A stretch of 58,313 nucleotides of DNA from an uncultured Archangium sp. (lineage in GTDB: Bacteria; Myxococcota; Myxococcia; Myxococcales; Myxococcaceae), in assembly GCA_903905455.1 (NCBI GenBank), contig CAIVGN010000120.1:1-58313 (forward strand). The letters are read 5' to 3'. A program made the translations under genes and the position numbers. Position 1 is the first letter of the stretch. Every line of letters begins with the position of its first letter. Positions 6,370 to 12,360 of this stretch are shown piece after piece. The notes under the pieces were generated by a model. It was given only the letters and a program-made list of their open reading frames with translations. It was not told the origin of the DNA and made no database searches.

Positions 6370-7017
6370 ATGCGCTTGTCGACGCACCACCTCTGCCTGC
6401 GCTTCGGCGCCGTCCACGCGCTCACCGACGTGACCCTCGAGTTCCCCGTCGGGAGCCGCACCGTGCTCTGGGGCCCGGCGGGCGGCGGGAAGACCTCGCT
6501 GCTCAAGTGCCTCACCGGCCTCGCCTTCGCCACCGCGGGTGACGTGCAGTGGGACGAGGTGAGCGTGGCCAGCCGCGCGCCCGAGGTGCGCCGCGACGCG
6601 CAGGTGGCCTTCGGCATGGTCTTCCAGAGCGACGCGCTCTTCGACTCGCTCACGGTGCTGGAGAACGTGCTCCTGCCACTGCGCCGGCGCCACGTGCCCG
6701 AGGCCGAGGCCCAGGCGCGGGCCGCCGAGGCCCTGGCACGCGTGGGGCTGACCACGGCGGCCCAGAAGCACCCCGAGACGCTGTCGGGGGGCATGAAGAA
6801 GCGCGCCGGCGTGGCCCGGGCCATCGTCGCCCGGCCCCAGGTGCTGATCGCCGACGATCCCTTCGCCGGCCTCGACCCGGTGACCGAGCAGTCCATCGCC
6901 GACCTGTTGATCGAGGTCTCGGAGGGCAAGACGTTGATCGTCGCCCTGCCCGACCCCGTGCCCTCGTTGCCGGTGGAGCTGGCGGTGCGCCTCGTCGCCG
7001 GGCGGGTGGCCTCGTGA
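6370..7017 (+). CDS. Mla/MCE-type ABC transporter ATPase, subunit 1 (degenerate catalytic site)
   Basis: A 215-residue ABC ATPase at the head of a phospholipid-transport (MlaF-like) operon. Walker A is GPAGGGKTS (35-43, Lys41) and the signature LSGGM (138-142) is canonical. The Walker B region reads VLIADDP (158-164), so Asp163 stands where the catalytic Glu should be. The H-loop His is also missing: the strand after the D-loop reads LIVALPDPVP instead of the usual VSHD. It therefore binds ATP but probably cannot hydrolyse it in its own site. The partner ATPase at 10629 has the opposite defects. The ATG at 6370 was chosen because the ABC fold begins immediately after it. A GTGA overlap joins it to the permease gene. 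Confidence 0.88.
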   Translation: MRLSTHHLCLRFGAVHALTDVTLEFPVGSRTVLWGPAGGGKTSLLKCLTGLAFATAGDVQWDEVSVASRAPEVRRDAQVAFGMVFQSDALFDSLTVLENVLLPLRRRHVPEAEAQARAAEALARVGLTTAAQKHPETLSGGMKKRAGVARAIVARPQVLIADDPFAGLDPVTEQSIADLLIEVSEGKTLIVALPDPVPSLPVELAVRLVAGRVAS

Positions 7018-7793
7018 TCGCGGCCCCCTTCCGCGCGCTGGGCGGGTTCGTGCTGTGGCTGACCCGGCTCGTCGGCGCGAACCTGATGGTCTTCGGCCGC
7101 ACGCTGCTGCACCTCCCGCGGCTCGACCTGGGGGAGCTGAGCCGGGGGCTGGTGCTCTTCGGCTTCCGCTCGCTGCCGCTCGCGCTGGGCGCGGGCACCT
7201 TGATCGGCGCCACGGTGGTGCTCCAGGCGGGGGTCTACGCCACCAAGTTCGGCGCGCGCCTCTACACCGGCTGGGCCGCGGGCTTCGCGCTGCTGTGGGA
7301 GTTCGGCCCGCTGCTGCTGGGCCTGGTGATGGCCGCCCGCATCGGCGCGCGCAACGCCGCCGAGCTCGCGCTGCTCACGGTCAACGGGCAGATCGAGGGC
7401 CTGCGGGGCATCTCCCTCGACCCCTTCCGCATTCTCGTGGCGCCGCGGGTGGTGGCCAGCGTGATCTCGGTGATGGCCCTGACCACCTCGACCTTCCTCG
7501 TCTCGATCCTCTGGGAAGCGGTGGCCGCGTACTTCACGCTCGAGCTCCCGGTGCGCGTCTTCTTCGGCGCGTTCTCCGACATGTTGCGCTGGGGCGACCT
7601 GGTGGGCGGCGTGGCCAAGACCACCGCCTTCGGGCTGGCCATCGCGGTGGTCTCCACGGCGGCGGGCTTGCGCGCGTCGGGTGGCGCGCGCGGGGTGGGC
7701 CAGGCCGCGGCGGCCTCGGTGGTCACCAGCTGCGCTGCGATCTTCACCCTCGACTTCCTCCTCACCCCGCTGCTCGCCCGGGTGTTCGGGTGA
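7014..7793 (+). CDS. MlaE-family permease, subunit 1
   Basis: A 259-residue polytopic protein of the MlaE/permease family that carries lipids between the inner membrane and an MCE protein. The N-terminal amphipathic/interfacial helix is followed by the typical core: GATVVLQAGVYATKFG, the conserved LLLGLVMAARIGARNAAEL and the EIG/EL-type loop VNGQIEGLRG. About five hydrophobic segments can be counted. It starts with GTG at 7014, overlapping the ATPase stop (GTGA), and its own stop overlaps the next GTG in the same way. With a second, diverged MlaE next to it, it is probably one half of a heterodimer rather than a homodimer. Confidence 0.88.
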   Translation: MIAAPFRALGGFVLWLTRLVGANLMVFGRTLLHLPRLDLGELSRGLVLFGFRSLPLALGAGTLIGATVVLQAGVYATKFGARLYTGWAAGFALLWEFGPLLLGLVMAARIGARNAAELALLTVNGQIEGLRGISLDPFRILVAPRVVASVISVMALTTSTFLVSILWEAVAAYFTLELPVRVFFGAFSDMLRWGDLVGGVAKTTAFGLAIAVVSTAAGLRASGGARGVGQAAAASVVTSCAAIFTLDFLLTPLLARVFG

Positions 7794-8533
7794 GCCTGGT
7801 GCACACCGTCGGCGCGCAGACGCTGCTCCTCGTTCGATCGGTGAAGAGCGCGCGGCGCGAAGGCGTGGTGGGCCGCGAGGTGCTGCGTCACATGGCCGAG
7901 CTGGGGGCCCAGTCGAGCCTGCTGGTCGGCGCGGGCCTGGCCTTCTTCGGCACGGTGATGGTGACCATCGCCAACGCCCAGGCGCGCAAGTACACCGGCA
8001 ACGTCTCGGTGGTGGGGCCGGCCTACTTCGAACTCATCTTGCGCGAGTTCGCGCCCATGCTCACCGCGCTGCTCGCCGCCTCGCGGCAGGCCGCCTCGAC
8101 GACCGCCGAGCTGGGCGCGATGTCGGTCAACGAGCAGATCGAAGCCCTCGAGCTCTCGGCTGCCGACCCGCTGGCCGAGCTGGTCGTGCCACGGATCATC
8201 GCCTCGACGCTCACGCTGCCGCTGCTGACCATCGTCGGCACCTTCTTCGCCACGGCCTCCGCGGTGCTCACCATCACCTATGCCTTCGGCGCCGATGGGA
8301 GCGCCTTCATGGACCCCTCCATGGTCGACCCCGGCGACGTGGCCTGTGCCCTGGTGAAGTCGGTGGCCTGCGGGGCGTTCATCCCCGTCGCCGCCTCGCT
8401 GCGGGGACTGCGGGCGAAGGGCGGCGCCAGCGCGGTGGGCGAGGCGGTCACCACCGGGGTGGTCGAGGCCTGCATGGGCTGCCTGCTGCTCGACTTCATG
8501 GTGGCCGCGGTCTTCCTGATTATCGGAGTCTGA
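7790..8533 (+). CDS. MlaE-family permease, subunit 2
   Basis: A 247-residue second MlaE-type permease, clearly diverged from its neighbour but with the same core: AFFGTVMVTIANAQARKYTG, the conserved LREFAPMLTALLAASRQAAS and the loop MSVNEQIEALEL. It starts with GTG at 7790 overlapping the previous TGA (GTGA), so translation is coupled. Two non-identical permeases in tandem imply a heterodimeric transmembrane domain, which matches the two non-identical ATPases of the operon. There is a 110-bp gap before the next gene, so transcription may be boosted or restarted there; no promoter is obvious. Confidence 0.88.
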   Translation: MSLVHTVGAQTLLLVRSVKSARREGVVGREVLRHMAELGAQSSLLVGAGLAFFGTVMVTIANAQARKYTGNVSVVGPAYFELILREFAPMLTALLAASRQAASTTAELGAMSVNEQIEALELSAADPLAELVVPRIIASTLTLPLLTIVGTFFATASAVLTITYAFGADGSAFMDPSMVDPGDVACALVKSVACGAFIPVAASLRGLRAKGGASAVGEAVTTGVVEACMGCLLLDFMVAAVFLIIGV

Positions 8534-8643
8534 GAAAAACGCGGGGCCGGCGCGCGCGCTGCCACCTCGACTTCGGCGCACCGCTGCGCCTAGGTTCGGC
8601 GCCGCCTTCAGGGGAAACTTTCATTTCGGAGTCCGAACGCCAC

Positions 8644-10641
8644 ATGAAGCAAATCACCATCGTTGCCCTCTTCGCCGGCGCCCTCGTCGCCTGTACGCCC
8701 CAGTCCAAGACCTGCACCACCCTCACCGTCCTCGACGACTGCGGCGCCAACCAGGTGTGCGTGATGGGTGAGTGCCGCGGAGGCCTCGTCGGCACGGGCT
8801 CGGGCACCGGCCAGGGCGGTGGCGCCACGCAGACCGGCGGCAGTGGCGGTGGCGTCACCGGCGGCGGCAACGGCCAGGGCGGCGGCAGCGCGCAGGGTGG
8901 CGGCACGGGCGGCGGCCTCACCGAGCCCGACTCGGGCGTGAACCCCAACTACGACGGCGGCTGCGGCCCCCCGGTGCCGGGCAACCCCACCATTCGTCGG
9001 CTGTGCGCCCCGGCGACGGACGACGAGTGCGCGGGTGCGACCGACTCGGCGCTGACCACCGGTGGCGTGCCGGCATCGCGGCTCAACGGCCCCCAGGGCA
9101 ACGGCTTCGACGACGACTGTGACGGCCTGGTCGACGAGGGCTGCTTCTGCCCCGCCAACGGCGTCACCAAGGACTGCTACCTCGTGCCGGCCACGCAGGT
9201 CGACCCCGGGACGGGGCTGCCCGTGGGCTGGTGCAGCAACAACGCCAAGGGCAGCCTCGACTGCGCCGGCGGCGAGCTCGCGAGCTGGTCGGGCGTGTGT
9301 CGTGGCGCCCAGCCCCCCGCGCTCACCGACTCGTGCGCGGCCGGCGACTACAACTGTGACGGCCTGTCGGGGAACAACGCGGCCGAAGGCTGCATGTGCG
9401 CCAACAGCGTGCAGTGCCCCTCGGCGAGCATCACCACCGCCCCCTACCCCAGCCCCGCGGCCATCCCCCTGGTCGACGGCTCGGCGTGGATTACCGACGC
9501 CGCGGCCCGCGGTCGCACCACCAACTGGACCTGGACCGTGCTCGGCGGGGACTGCGACAACGTGCTGCCCAACCCCAGCTTCGCCATCTACAGCCAGGCC
9601 AACTCCGGCACCGCGGGCGCGCGCAAGGGCACCCGCACCGGCGTTCGCCTCGACGCGACGCAGACCCCCGCGCGCTACGTCCCCCAGGCGGGCGGCACGC
9701 TGATCGGCCTGCAGGCGGTCAACTTCGGCAACGGCGCGGCGGGCGGCCGCGTCTACCCGGCCTTCGGCTTGTCGGGCGACTACATCGTGCAGGGCGAATT
9801 CACCCTCGACGGCAAGAGCTACAGCTGCACCCAGAAGGTCCAGGTGCGCGCCCCCGGCATTCGCGCCGAGCTCTGCTGGGACACCGTCGGTGGCATCGGC
9901 GGCGCCGGCAACGACATCGACCTGCACTTCGCCCGGCTCCAGGGCGTGACCTGCGCCACCAAGGGGTGGACCAACATCTGCCCGACGCAGGACTGCTACT
10001 ACAACTCGGGCTGCGCGGACGGCCGCGGCACGCCGGGTTGGGGCTACACGCAGTCGGCGGCGACGGCCTGCCAGGGCTGGTCGAGCAAGCGCACGTCGGC
10101 CTGCGACAACCCCCGCCTCGACCGCGACAACGTGCAGTGCGATCGCAGCCTCACCGACCCCACCAACACCGACTTCTGCGGCCCCGAGAACATCAACCTC
10201 GACAACCCGGGCAACGGCGACACCTTCGTGGTGGGCGTCAACCACTACGGCAACAGCTCGGGCACGGCCAACGCCAAGCCCCACGTGAACCTGTACTGCA
10301 ACGGTGAGCGCGTGGTGTCGGTGGGCTACAACCCCGCCACCGGCCAGGTCGCCCACCCGCTGCTGAACACCGCGGGCGCGAGCATCGCAGGCGACTTCTG
10401 GACGGTGGCGACCATCAAGGCCAACGTCGCCGGCGGCAGCCTCACCTCGTGCACCGTCACCACCGTGCCTTCGCGCGTGGCCGACACCCTGCGCGACGGG
10501 CCGGCGAACATGGGCGGTACGGGCAACGACATCTGCGTCGCCCACGCCTACGCCTCGCAGGCCTTCGTCGACAACGGCACCACCCAGGGCCTCACCCAGG
10601 GCGTCCAGCCGGCCACCGCGGCCCAGTGGTGCAAGCACTGA
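8644..10641 (+). CDS. Secreted lipoprotein with Gly-rich linker and MopE-like metal-binding motif
   Basis: A 665-residue protein with a lipoprotein signal (MKQITIVALFAGALVAC, lipobox LVAC, Cys17). A short Cys-rich unit follows (about 23-43), then a Gly/Thr/Ser/Gln-rich linker (about 45-97). Next comes the putative metal-binding motif NGFDDDCDGLVDEGC (MopE/PF11617 type) with a weaker copy DYNCDGLSGNNAAEGC. The C-terminal part is a Cys-rich beta-sheet region containing GNDIDLHFARL and paired Cys (CYYNSGC), a layout common in myxobacterial surface proteins. Its last 13 nt overlap the next ATPase gene, so it belongs to the lipid-transport operon. It may act as a partner at the outer membrane, but it has no similarity to MlaA or PqiC that I can see; the role is inference. 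Confidence 0.8.
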   Translation: MKQITIVALFAGALVACTPQSKTCTTLTVLDDCGANQVCVMGECRGGLVGTGSGTGQGGGATQTGGSGGGVTGGGNGQGGGSAQGGGTGGGLTEPDSGVNPNYDGGCGPPVPGNPTIRRLCAPATDDECAGATDSALTTGGVPASRLNGPQGNGFDDDCDGLVDEGCFCPANGVTKDCYLVPATQVDPGTGLPVGWCSNNAKGSLDCAGGELASWSGVCRGAQPPALTDSCAAGDYNCDGLSGNNAAEGCMCANSVQCPSASITTAPYPSPAAIPLVDGSAWITDAAARGRTTNWTWTVLGGDCDNVLPNPSFAIYSQANSGTAGARKGTRTGVRLDATQTPARYVPQAGGTLIGLQAVNFGNGAAGGRVYPAFGLSGDYIVQGEFTLDGKSYSCTQKVQVRAPGIRAELCWDTVGGIGGAGNDIDLHFARLQGVTCATKGWTNICPTQDCYYNSGCADGRGTPGWGYTQSAATACQGWSSKRTSACDNPRLDRDNVQCDRSLTDPTNTDFCGPENINLDNPGNGDTFVVGVNHYGNSSGTANAKPHVNLYCNGERVVSVGYNPATGQVAHPLLNTAGASIAGDFWTVATIKANVAGGSLTSCTVTTVPSRVADTLRDGPANMGGTGNDICVAHAYASQAFVDNGTTQGLTQGVQPATAAQWCKH

Positions 10642-11336
10642 CCCCAGCGCAGCCCTCAGCGCAGCTCGGGGGGCCGACCCTCGAGTTGCGTGGCATCACC
10701 AAGCGCTTCGGCGCGGCGACCATCCTCGAGGGGCTCTCCGTGGAGATCCCCCTGACGGGCATCACCTTCATCGTGGGGGCCTCGGGCAGCGGCAAGTCGG
10801 TGCTCTGCCGCCTGGCGGTGGGGCTGCTCAAGCCCGACGCAGGCGAGGTGTTCCTCTTCGGGCAGCGGGTCGACACCCTGCCCGAGCGCAAGCTGCAGCC
10901 GCTGCGCGCGCGGGCGCCGTACCTGGTGCAGGGGCCGGCGCTGCTCGACTGGCTGACGCTCAAGGCCAACGTGGCCCTGGCCGACCCCACCGCGAAGCAC
11001 GATGGCCGGGCCGAGGCCGCGCTCGAGCGCGTGGGCCTCGCGGACTTCGTCGACCGCAAGCCGCCCGAGGTGGGGCCGGGCATCCGCAAGCGGGCGGCCA
11101 TCGCCCGGGCGCTGGTGCTCAAGCCCGAGGTGCTGTTGCTCGACGAGCCCACCACCGGGCTCGATCGCGAAGCCGCGGGCCAGGTCAACGACACCCTGGC
11201 GCTGGTGCGCGACCAGGGCCTCGGGGTGGCGTTGGTGTCCCACGACTACGACGCGCTGCGGAAGCTGGCCGACCGCGTGGTGCAGGTGAAGGATCACCGC
11301 ATCGGCTACTGCGGCCCCGCGAAGGGCTTCGCCTGA
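10629..11336 (+). CDS. Mla/MCE-type ABC transporter ATPase, subunit 2 (degenerate signature)
   Basis: A 235-residue ABC ATPase directly upstream of the MCE gene. Walker A is GASGSGKS (50-57), Walker B is VLLLDEP (168-174) with the catalytic Glu173, and the H-loop VSHDYDAL is intact. The signature motif, normally LSGGM in MlaF proteins, reads VGPGI (148-152). It thus has a full hydrolysis machinery but a poor signature, the mirror image of the ATPase at 6370. The start is uncertain: GTG at 10626 or 10629 overlaps the lipoprotein gene end, and a TTG at 10686 lies just before the ABC fold. The overlap and the MCE gene 13 bp downstream support one operon. Confidence 0.87.
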   Translation: MQALTPAQPSAQLGGPTLELRGITKRFGAATILEGLSVEIPLTGITFIVGASGSGKSVLCRLAVGLLKPDAGEVFLFGQRVDTLPERKLQPLRARAPYLVQGPALLDWLTLKANVALADPTAKHDGRAEAALERVGLADFVDRKPPEVGPGIRKRAAIARALVLKPEVLLLDEPTTGLDREAAGQVNDTLALVRDQGLGVALVSHDYDALRKLADRVVQVKDHRIGYCGPAKGFA

Positions 11337-11349
11337 TAAACCCCCCGGC

Positions 11350-12360
11350 ATGGACGAGAGTCGTCTCGAGCTGAAGGTCGGTACGCTGGTCGTCGCGGCG
11401 CTCGTCGGGGCGTTCGCCCTGCTGGTGCTGATGGGCGAGGTCTCGTTCGGCAGCGGCAAGCAGCTGGTCGTGGACTTCTCGCACACCGGCAACGTGGTGA
11501 AGAACGCGCCGGTGAAGCTGGGCGGCGTGGTGGTGGGCAAGGTGGCGGACGTGGAGCTCCTCGCTTCGCGCCGCGACACCGACGGCTCGCCCATGCCGGT
11601 GAAGATGACGCTGGGGCTGTCGAACGAGGCCGCCGAGGCCCTGCGCACCGACGTCGCGGTCACCGTGTCGAGCGTGGGGCCGCTGGGGGAGTCGTACCTC
11701 GAGCTGTGGCCCGGCTCGGCGACCACCCCGCACGACCCGAAGGTCCCGGTGCGCGGCATGGACTCGCCCCGCATCGACGTGGTCTCCAACCGCCTCGCCA
11801 AGTTCCTCGACGCGGCCTCCAAGGTGCTCGACTCCGACCCGGAGGTGTTCACCAAGCTCATTGGCGGCGTGGGCGGGCTCACCACCACCGTCGACGGGGT
11901 GCTCACCGACAACCGCGCCGAGCTGCGGACCATGGCCGTGGAGCTCTCGGCGGCGGCGAAGGATCTCCGCGCCCTCGCCGCGGCCGCGCGCACGCAGCTC
12001 GAGCCCGGCGGCAAGGCCCACGGGCTGCTCGACGACGCCGCGGCGACGGCCAAGGTGGCCCGGGCCGACTTCCCCGAGCTCTCGAAGCAGGCGTCGATCG
12101 CCCTGGGCGGGCTGGCCCGCGTCTCGGGGCAGCTCACCGAAGAAGACGGCCAGCGCCTCAAGTCGATGATCGCGAAGTACCAGTCGGCCGGCGAGAAGGT
12201 CGAGGTGCTCGCCACCCGCGCCGATCGCCTGCTCTCGAAGATCGAAGCCGGCGAAGGCAGCCTGGGCGCCGCGATGAAGGACCCGGCGGTCTACGACGAG
12301 CTCAAGAGCCTGCTGACCGACGTGCGGAAGAACCCGTGGAAGCTCCTGTGGAAGGAATGA
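11350..12360 (+). CDS. MlaD/MCE-domain lipid-transport protein
   Basis: A 336-residue protein with one N-terminal transmembrane anchor (about 10-32, LVVAALVGAFALLVLM), then an MCE domain (about 38-115: FSHTGNVVKNAPVKLGGVVVGKV...GPLGESYLEL) and a long helical C-terminal region (about 140-336). It should sit in the inner membrane with the MCE domain in the periplasm, forming the substrate-binding ring of the transporter. The long C-terminal helices resemble tunnel-forming MCE proteins more than the short E. coli MlaD. It is the last gene of the operon that starts at 6370 and lies 13 bp after the second ATPase. Confidence 0.9.
   Translation: MDESRLELKVGTLVVAALVGAFALLVLMGEVSFGSGKQLVVDFSHTGNVVKNAPVKLGGVVVGKVADVELLASRRDTDGSPMPVKMTLGLSNEAAEALRTDVAVTVSSVGPLGESYLELWPGSATTPHDPKVPVRGMDSPRIDVVSNRLAKFLDAASKVLDSDPEVFTKLIGGVGGLTTTVDGVLTDNRAELRTMAVELSAAAKDLRALAAAARTQLEPGGKAHGLLDDAAATAKVARADFPELSKQASIALGGLARVSGQLTEEDGQRLKSMIAKYQSAGEKVEVLATRADRLLSKIEAGEGSLGAAMKDPAVYDELKSLLTDVRKNPWKLLWKE

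Follow-up and report, generated by a model that had tools for sequence, protein, structure and literature searches.

A candidate four-chain MCE-type transporter of Myxococcota with complementary motif losses in its two ATPases

The question raised by one gene cluster of an uncultured Archangium sp. is whether two ATP-binding cassette (ABC) ATPases, neither of which carries a full set of catalytic motifs, together drive a single transporter. The sequence surveyed was a contig stretch of 58,313 nucleotides (the window) from a draft genome of 8.6 Mb. The cluster encodes two ABC ATPases (A1 and A2), two MlaE-type permeases (T1 and T2) and an MCE protein, so that the MlaE permease, the MCE protein and the ABC ATPase of an MCE/Mla-type lipid ABC transporter are all encoded. 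Judging from the sequences, we consider a four-chain core probable, at roughly 0.87, in which T1 and T2 would form a heterodimer carrying an obligate A1:A2 heterodimer, with one ATP site live and the other degenerate. The observations behind this reading are complementary motif losses, their fixation across the phylum, four separate clades, and joint loss of the components in Myxococcaceae.

The motifs of the two ATPases were compared in the window. An earlier note on this DNA had claimed complementary defects, and these were seen directly. A1 has LSGGM, carries Asp in place of the catalytic Glu and lacks the H-loop His, and A2 has the catalytic Glu and the H-loop His, with VGPGI at the signature position. 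Walker A is intact in both proteins, and the Q-loop is FQ in A1 and VQ in A2. In a head-to-tail dimer of nucleotide-binding domains (NBDs), each site receives its Walker motifs, Q-loop and H-loop from one subunit and its signature from the partner (PMC7756269). Paired in this way, the Walker side of A2 and the signature of A1 would form a complete site, and the Walker side of A1 and the signature of A2 would form a site degenerate on both faces, as the same note had proposed. The distribution of losses is that of degenerate-site heterodimers, with the signature affected in one NBD, Glu and the H-loop in the other, and the Walker A Lys still present in both. The predicted fold of A1 is that of a normal NBD; the AlphaFold2 model had a mean predicted local distance difference test (pLDDT) score of 94.5, and the closest solved structures include MceG (8fed), LolD, MacB and MlaF (6xbd).

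To place the window among its relatives, orthologous loci were gathered at the levels of genus, family, order and phylum, and duplicates were removed before counting. The A1 signature Ser-Gly-Gly was present in 71/71 sequences and the Walker A Lys in 70/70, and the D-loop was likewise kept in essentially all species. The catalytic position of A1 (n = 71) was Asp in 60 sequences, Glu in 10 and Gly in 1, and its H-loop position (n = 71) was Pro in 42, Ala in 9, Thr in 7, Asn in 6, His in 4, Ser in 2 and Gly in 1. Altogether, Glu and/or His was lost in 70 of the 71 A1 sequences. Every A2 retained the catalytic Glu (68/68) and the H-loop His (67/67 sequences covering that position), and none had Ser-Gly-Gly at the signature (0/68). 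Most A2 sequences showed Gly-Pro-Gly there, with Gly-Ala-Gly, Ser-Ala-Gly and others also found, and the fourth-position Gly was kept in 67/68. As controls, ordinary MlaF from the same searches was complete in 33/33 cases and MlaF of Acidobacteriota in 15/15.

The direction of the asymmetry never flipped between A1 and A2 in any locus. Among the non-redundant loci with both ATPase genes (n = 49), 47 were complementary, one was cut by a contig end (L138) and one was exceptional (L189). Because the same pattern recurs in 48 of these 49 loci (L138 included), the split of motifs in the window is not due to chance. The earlier note had raised the question of whether other myxobacteria share the paired substitutions, and this holds throughout the phylum, genomes with unlinked ATPase genes included. 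No homologous operon with both ATPases separately complete was found among the gathered loci, nor any A2 with an intact signature; the A1 of L189 alone looks complete. The complementary motif split is fixed across Myxococcota, and the gene set A1-T1-T2-A2-MCE is conserved in Archangium, Myxococcus, Corallococcus and Pyxidicoccus.

The phylogeny of the four core subunits was examined, and the ATPase tree was computed with the motif columns left out. A1 (support 97/77) and A2 (100/99) each formed a clade, both apart from ordinary MlaF. In the permease tree, T1 (100/98), T2 (100/100) and ordinary MlaE (96/88) were all separate, which bears out the description of two distinct MlaE permeases, both of them matching the Pfam MlaE family. 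Since A1, A2, T1 and T2 are separate clades, they belong to one old four-subunit system and not to a recent duplication. On the tree, a single change accounted for the A2 signature state and two for the His state, whereas the Glu state took at least five, every one of them in A1. The loss of the signature may have come first and freed the catalytic residues of A1, an order that L189 would fit. A common descent of T1/T2 with the MlaE pair of the L159 type was rejected by the tree, where L159 grouped with neither; no other MlaE pair in that tree came with a canonical ATPase, and mycobacterial sequences were not included.

The partnership of the subunits was also followed in genomes where the genes are dispersed or absent. 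Other families of Myxococcota include at least six genomes (G181, G174, G176, G177, G180 and G068) in which A1 is unlinked from T1-T2-A2. The unlinked A1 has either LSGGM or ISGGM and carries Asn or Thr in place of the His, and the A2 of the same genomes has a degenerate signature. In G181, G177 and G068 a contig end lies close to T1, yet A1 is on a different contig. The genes of family f3, which belongs to the order, are dispersed too, with the motifs kept. As motif complementarity persists with unlinked genes, it is not a by-product of linkage. In the f3 genomes of about 2.9 Mb (L097, L098, L100, L084, L085 and L087), A1, T1-T2, A2 and MCE stand at separate loci, and all are retained. The system has been lost from several Myxococcaceae genera. 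The 21 Myxococcaceae genomes without T1 had no A1 (best score 193 bits, compared to 329-338 in three carriers) and no A2 (best score 203 bits, compared to 341-351 in carriers).

The two permeases differ in a cytoplasmic segment that reads EQ in ordinary MlaE. T2 keeps the Glu in 66/71 sequences, and T1 has Gly in 57/73 (mostly GQ). The MlaE coupling helix between transmembrane helices TM2 and TM3 touches the ATPase (PMC7790496), and the EQ segment may belong to this helix.

Based on these patterns, A1 and A2 would pair head-to-tail on T1 and T2, under a ring of the single MCE protein. Site 1, composed of Walker A/B, Glu and His of A2 with LSGGM of A1, would be complete and hydrolyse ATP. Site 2, composed of Walker A and Asp of A1, without His, and the degenerate signature of A2, would bind ATP with slow or no hydrolysis. 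Since the Walker A Lys is kept in A1 and A2, both sites should still bind ATP, and the retained Walker A of A1 argues for a kept ATP-binding role in this subunit. The ATP held at site 2 may serve as a hinge or clamp of the kind known from TAP, TM287/288 and CFTR, and one site would hydrolyse per cycle, as concluded for degenerate-site exporters (PMC7756269). We infer the physical pairing of A1 with A2, the one-site hydrolysis, a homohexameric MCE ring and a lipid substrate. The MCE protein has an N-terminal membrane helix, one MCE domain and a helical C-terminus of about 200 aa. Its monomer model was fairly confident in the MCE domain and poor beyond it (mean pLDDT 55), with a low-confidence helical tail, so a periplasmic needle formed by this protein is not claimed. 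The C-terminus ends in a conserved PWK..WK motif.

Other arrangements were weighed against the same data. A1 and A2 could each be homodimeric and serve two separate co-encoded transporters, for instance A1 with T1 and A2 with T2; homodimeric ATPases are the rule in the described Mla and Mce1 transporters, and A1 shares only 29% identity with A2. However, in almost every species an A1 homodimer would lack a complete site and an A2 homodimer would have none at all, the losses are exactly complementary with the direction never swapped, and both ATPases vanish together with the permeases, which makes this arrangement quite improbable. It is also unlikely that A1 is a regulatory pseudo-ATPase, or the partner of another operon's MlaF, while an A2 homodimer performs all hydrolysis through its altered signature. 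The mycobacterial MceG is probably common to several Mce systems (PMC9882608), the genome G178 has A2 with no detected A1, and A2 retains part of the signature in its fourth-position Gly, all of which would agree with such a role. Nevertheless, LSGGM is perfect and Walker A and the D-loop are retained in the A1 of essentially all species, as a site-completing partner would need, and A1 tracks T1, T2 and A2, as Myxococcaceae without the system retain ordinary MlaF-level matches and no A1. A decaying transporter, with the motif changes as drift in a non-essential paralogue pair, might be suggested by the repeated interruption of the cluster by other genes and by the losses in Myxococcaceae genera. 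This is scarcely credible, because the A1 signature and the A2 Glu and His do not vary across the deep divergences of the phylum, and decay is confined in each ATPase to dead-site positions.

Several points weigh against the obligate heterodimer. The A1 of L189 (G156) has LSGGM, Glu and His, and this complete-looking protein could in principle work alone. In G178, T1-T2-A2-MCE is present and no A1 was found; five further ABC loci were checked there for a hidden A1, and none was A1-like, all of them keeping the signature and the Walker B Glu. L201 (G069) contains A1-T1-T2 without a recognised A2. The His is again present in the A1 of L045, with Asp at the catalytic position, and it is kept in the A1 of L198 and L201, where Glu is lost. 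Sites with a Glu-to-Asp change are still capable of slow ATP hydrolysis (PMC7756269). Very diverged systems could also be missed, because T1 orthologues of distant families were recognised by score. Apart from these points, the A2 of L080, in a metagenome-assembled genome, has a disrupted Walker A, which is probably a sequence error. None of the exceptions (L189, L045, L198, L201, G178 and L080) reverses the direction of the asymmetry.

A search of Acidobacteriota with the T1 profile returned 15 best loci, all single-permease with complete ATPases; this search was non-discriminating, because the broader profile gives ordinary MlaE more than 200 bits. The contig scan of genomes relied on peptide patterns of myxobacteria, and absence from other phyla cannot be read from it. 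One MlaF-like ATPase (L103, G036:C15:54866-55444; TSVVIMADLASAF) has intact LSGGM and DEP with Ala for the H-loop His, and no MlaE was recognised within its short flank. The record L143, titled Comamonas sp. KCTC 72670, contains a cluster of the myxobacterial type, with a T1 identity of 63% and an A1 that groups with Myxococcaceae; its organism label is probably wrong.

The cluster in the window comprises six genes in the same orientation, in the order A1, T1, T2, a lipoprotein-type gene, A2 and the MCE protein (Table 1). The T1 start overlaps the A1 stop and the T2 start overlaps the T1 stop, both at GTGA junctions, and the A2 start sits within the 3' end of the lipoprotein-type gene. Both permeases exceeded the PF02405 cut-off by a wide margin, and the MCE gene scored 43 bits for PF02470 against a cut-off of 25; its score for the MlaD equivalog TIGR04430 was 51.4 bits, below the cut-off of 135. 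Neither MlaB (STAS) nor MlaC was found among the six cluster genes, to which this search was limited. Two further MlaE loci exist in the same genome, each with an ordinary complete MlaF-type ATPase.

Table 1. Genes and ATPase motifs of the transporter cluster, in positions of the window
Feature	Position	Strand	Description
A1	6370..7017	+	ABC ATPase, 215 aa; Pfam ABC_tran (PF00005) E 1.3e-29
A1 Walker A	6472-6495	+	GPAGGGKT; from sequence
A1 signature	6781..6795	+	LSGGM, intact; from sequence
A1 catalytic-Glu position	6856..6858	+	Asp (Walker B VLIADD); from sequence
A1 H-loop position	6949..6951	+	Pro (TLIVALPDP); from sequence
T1	7014..7793	+	MlaE-type permease 1; PF02405 E 1.8e-50; GTG start
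T2	7790..8533	+	MlaE-type permease 2; PF02405 E 6.2e-46; GTG start
Interposed lipoprotein-type gene	8644..10641	+	no Pfam or NCBIfam family
A2	10626 or 10629..11336	+	ABC ATPase, GTG start; Pfam ABC_tran E 6.1e-26
A2 Walker A	10776-10799	+	GASGSGKS; from sequence
A2 signature position	11070..11084	+	VGPGI, degenerate; from sequence
A2 catalytic Glu	11145..11147	+	LLLDE; from sequence
A2 H-loop His	11241..11243	+	VSHD; from sequence
MCE protein	11350..12360	+	336 aa; PF02470 (MlaD/MCE) E 4.7e-11

The five transporter genes had been placed in one operon. All of them are present in one cluster, but the 2-kb lipoprotein-type gene splits T2 from A2. Promoter- and terminator-like sites, which were looked at for co-transcription across the inserted gene, did not occur beyond chance level. 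The product of this gene has 665 aa and a DDDCDG motif. Its orthologues stand before A2 in the two genus relatives examined (L258 and L259), and in other genera A2 directly follows T2; the gene is probably not part of the transporter. Unrelated genes break the cluster at T1/T2, T2/A2 or A2/MCE, varying by genus (L258, L259, L146, L147, L122 and L134). In two genus relatives the gap between T2 and A2 measures about 11-17 kb and includes a TRAP solute-binding protein-like gene and large membrane proteins.

The cluster was compared to known systems. The E. coli Mla complex, MlaF2E2D6B2, contains two copies of one ATPase (PMC7790496), which agrees with the earlier note's description of MlaFE as homodimeric. 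The MlaFEDB systems of E. coli, P. aeruginosa and A. baumannii resemble the cluster in having an MlaE-fold permease, an ABC ATPase and an MCE protein clustered, and the A1 model matches their MlaF (6xbd). They have one ATPase gene and one permease gene, whereas two distinct ATPases with split motifs and two distinct permeases are found here, with a longer MCE protein. MlaFEDB in the strict sense has one ATPase gene providing two complete sites, and neither of the two ATPases here is complete alone. Mycobacterial Mce1 combines YrbE1A/B with an MceG homodimer, and MceG probably serves more than one system (PMC9882608). The likeness to Mce1 (YrbE1A/YrbE1B) lies in a heterodimeric MlaE-family permease pair with MCE proteins. 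However, Mce1 has six Mce proteins and the MceG homodimer; the cluster departs from the actinobacterial Mce plan in pairing its two permeases with a single MCE gene, and its ATPases would be heterodimeric.

In TAP1/2, TM287/288, CFTR and MRP1, the signature is altered in one NBD and Glu is changed to Asp, often with an H-loop change, in the other (PMC7756269). The motif pattern of A1 and A2 matches this asymmetry, as the comparison with TAP and CFTR in the earlier note had it, and the shared feature would be one consensus and one degenerate composite site. Those proteins have the exporter fold (or form a channel) with the transmembrane domain fused to the NBD, whereas the NBDs here are separate subunits on MlaE-fold permeases, unlike the type IV exporter fold. 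Because of this architecture, the likeness to the exporter-fold degenerate-site proteins is convergent. Full-text literature searches, with most subscription papers and bioRxiv outside their reach, turned up no MCE/Mla transporter described as having two ATPases or a degenerate site. The cluster appears to represent an MCE-type transporter in which a degenerate ATP site arose by convergence, a combination for which no earlier report was found within the searched literature.

Degenerate ATP sites have mostly been discussed for exporter-fold ABC proteins, and their purpose is still debated. With separate ATPase subunits, each site can be mutated or swapped while the membrane domains are left untouched. 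How the sites decayed is readable from the tree, with the signature changed in every A2 and repeated changes at the A1 residues His and Glu, and this ranking of changes is the same as that reported for human degenerate sites. A wider picture, which we put forward tentatively, is that of an ancient Myxococcota-wide transporter with four specialised chains and an independently evolved engine of the TAP/CFTR type, whose asymmetry might fix the driven permease half and make intermembrane lipid transport one-way. A homodimeric MlaF/MceG core is probably not universal among MCE systems, and the built-in asymmetry would offer a handle on the question of the direction of Mla transport.

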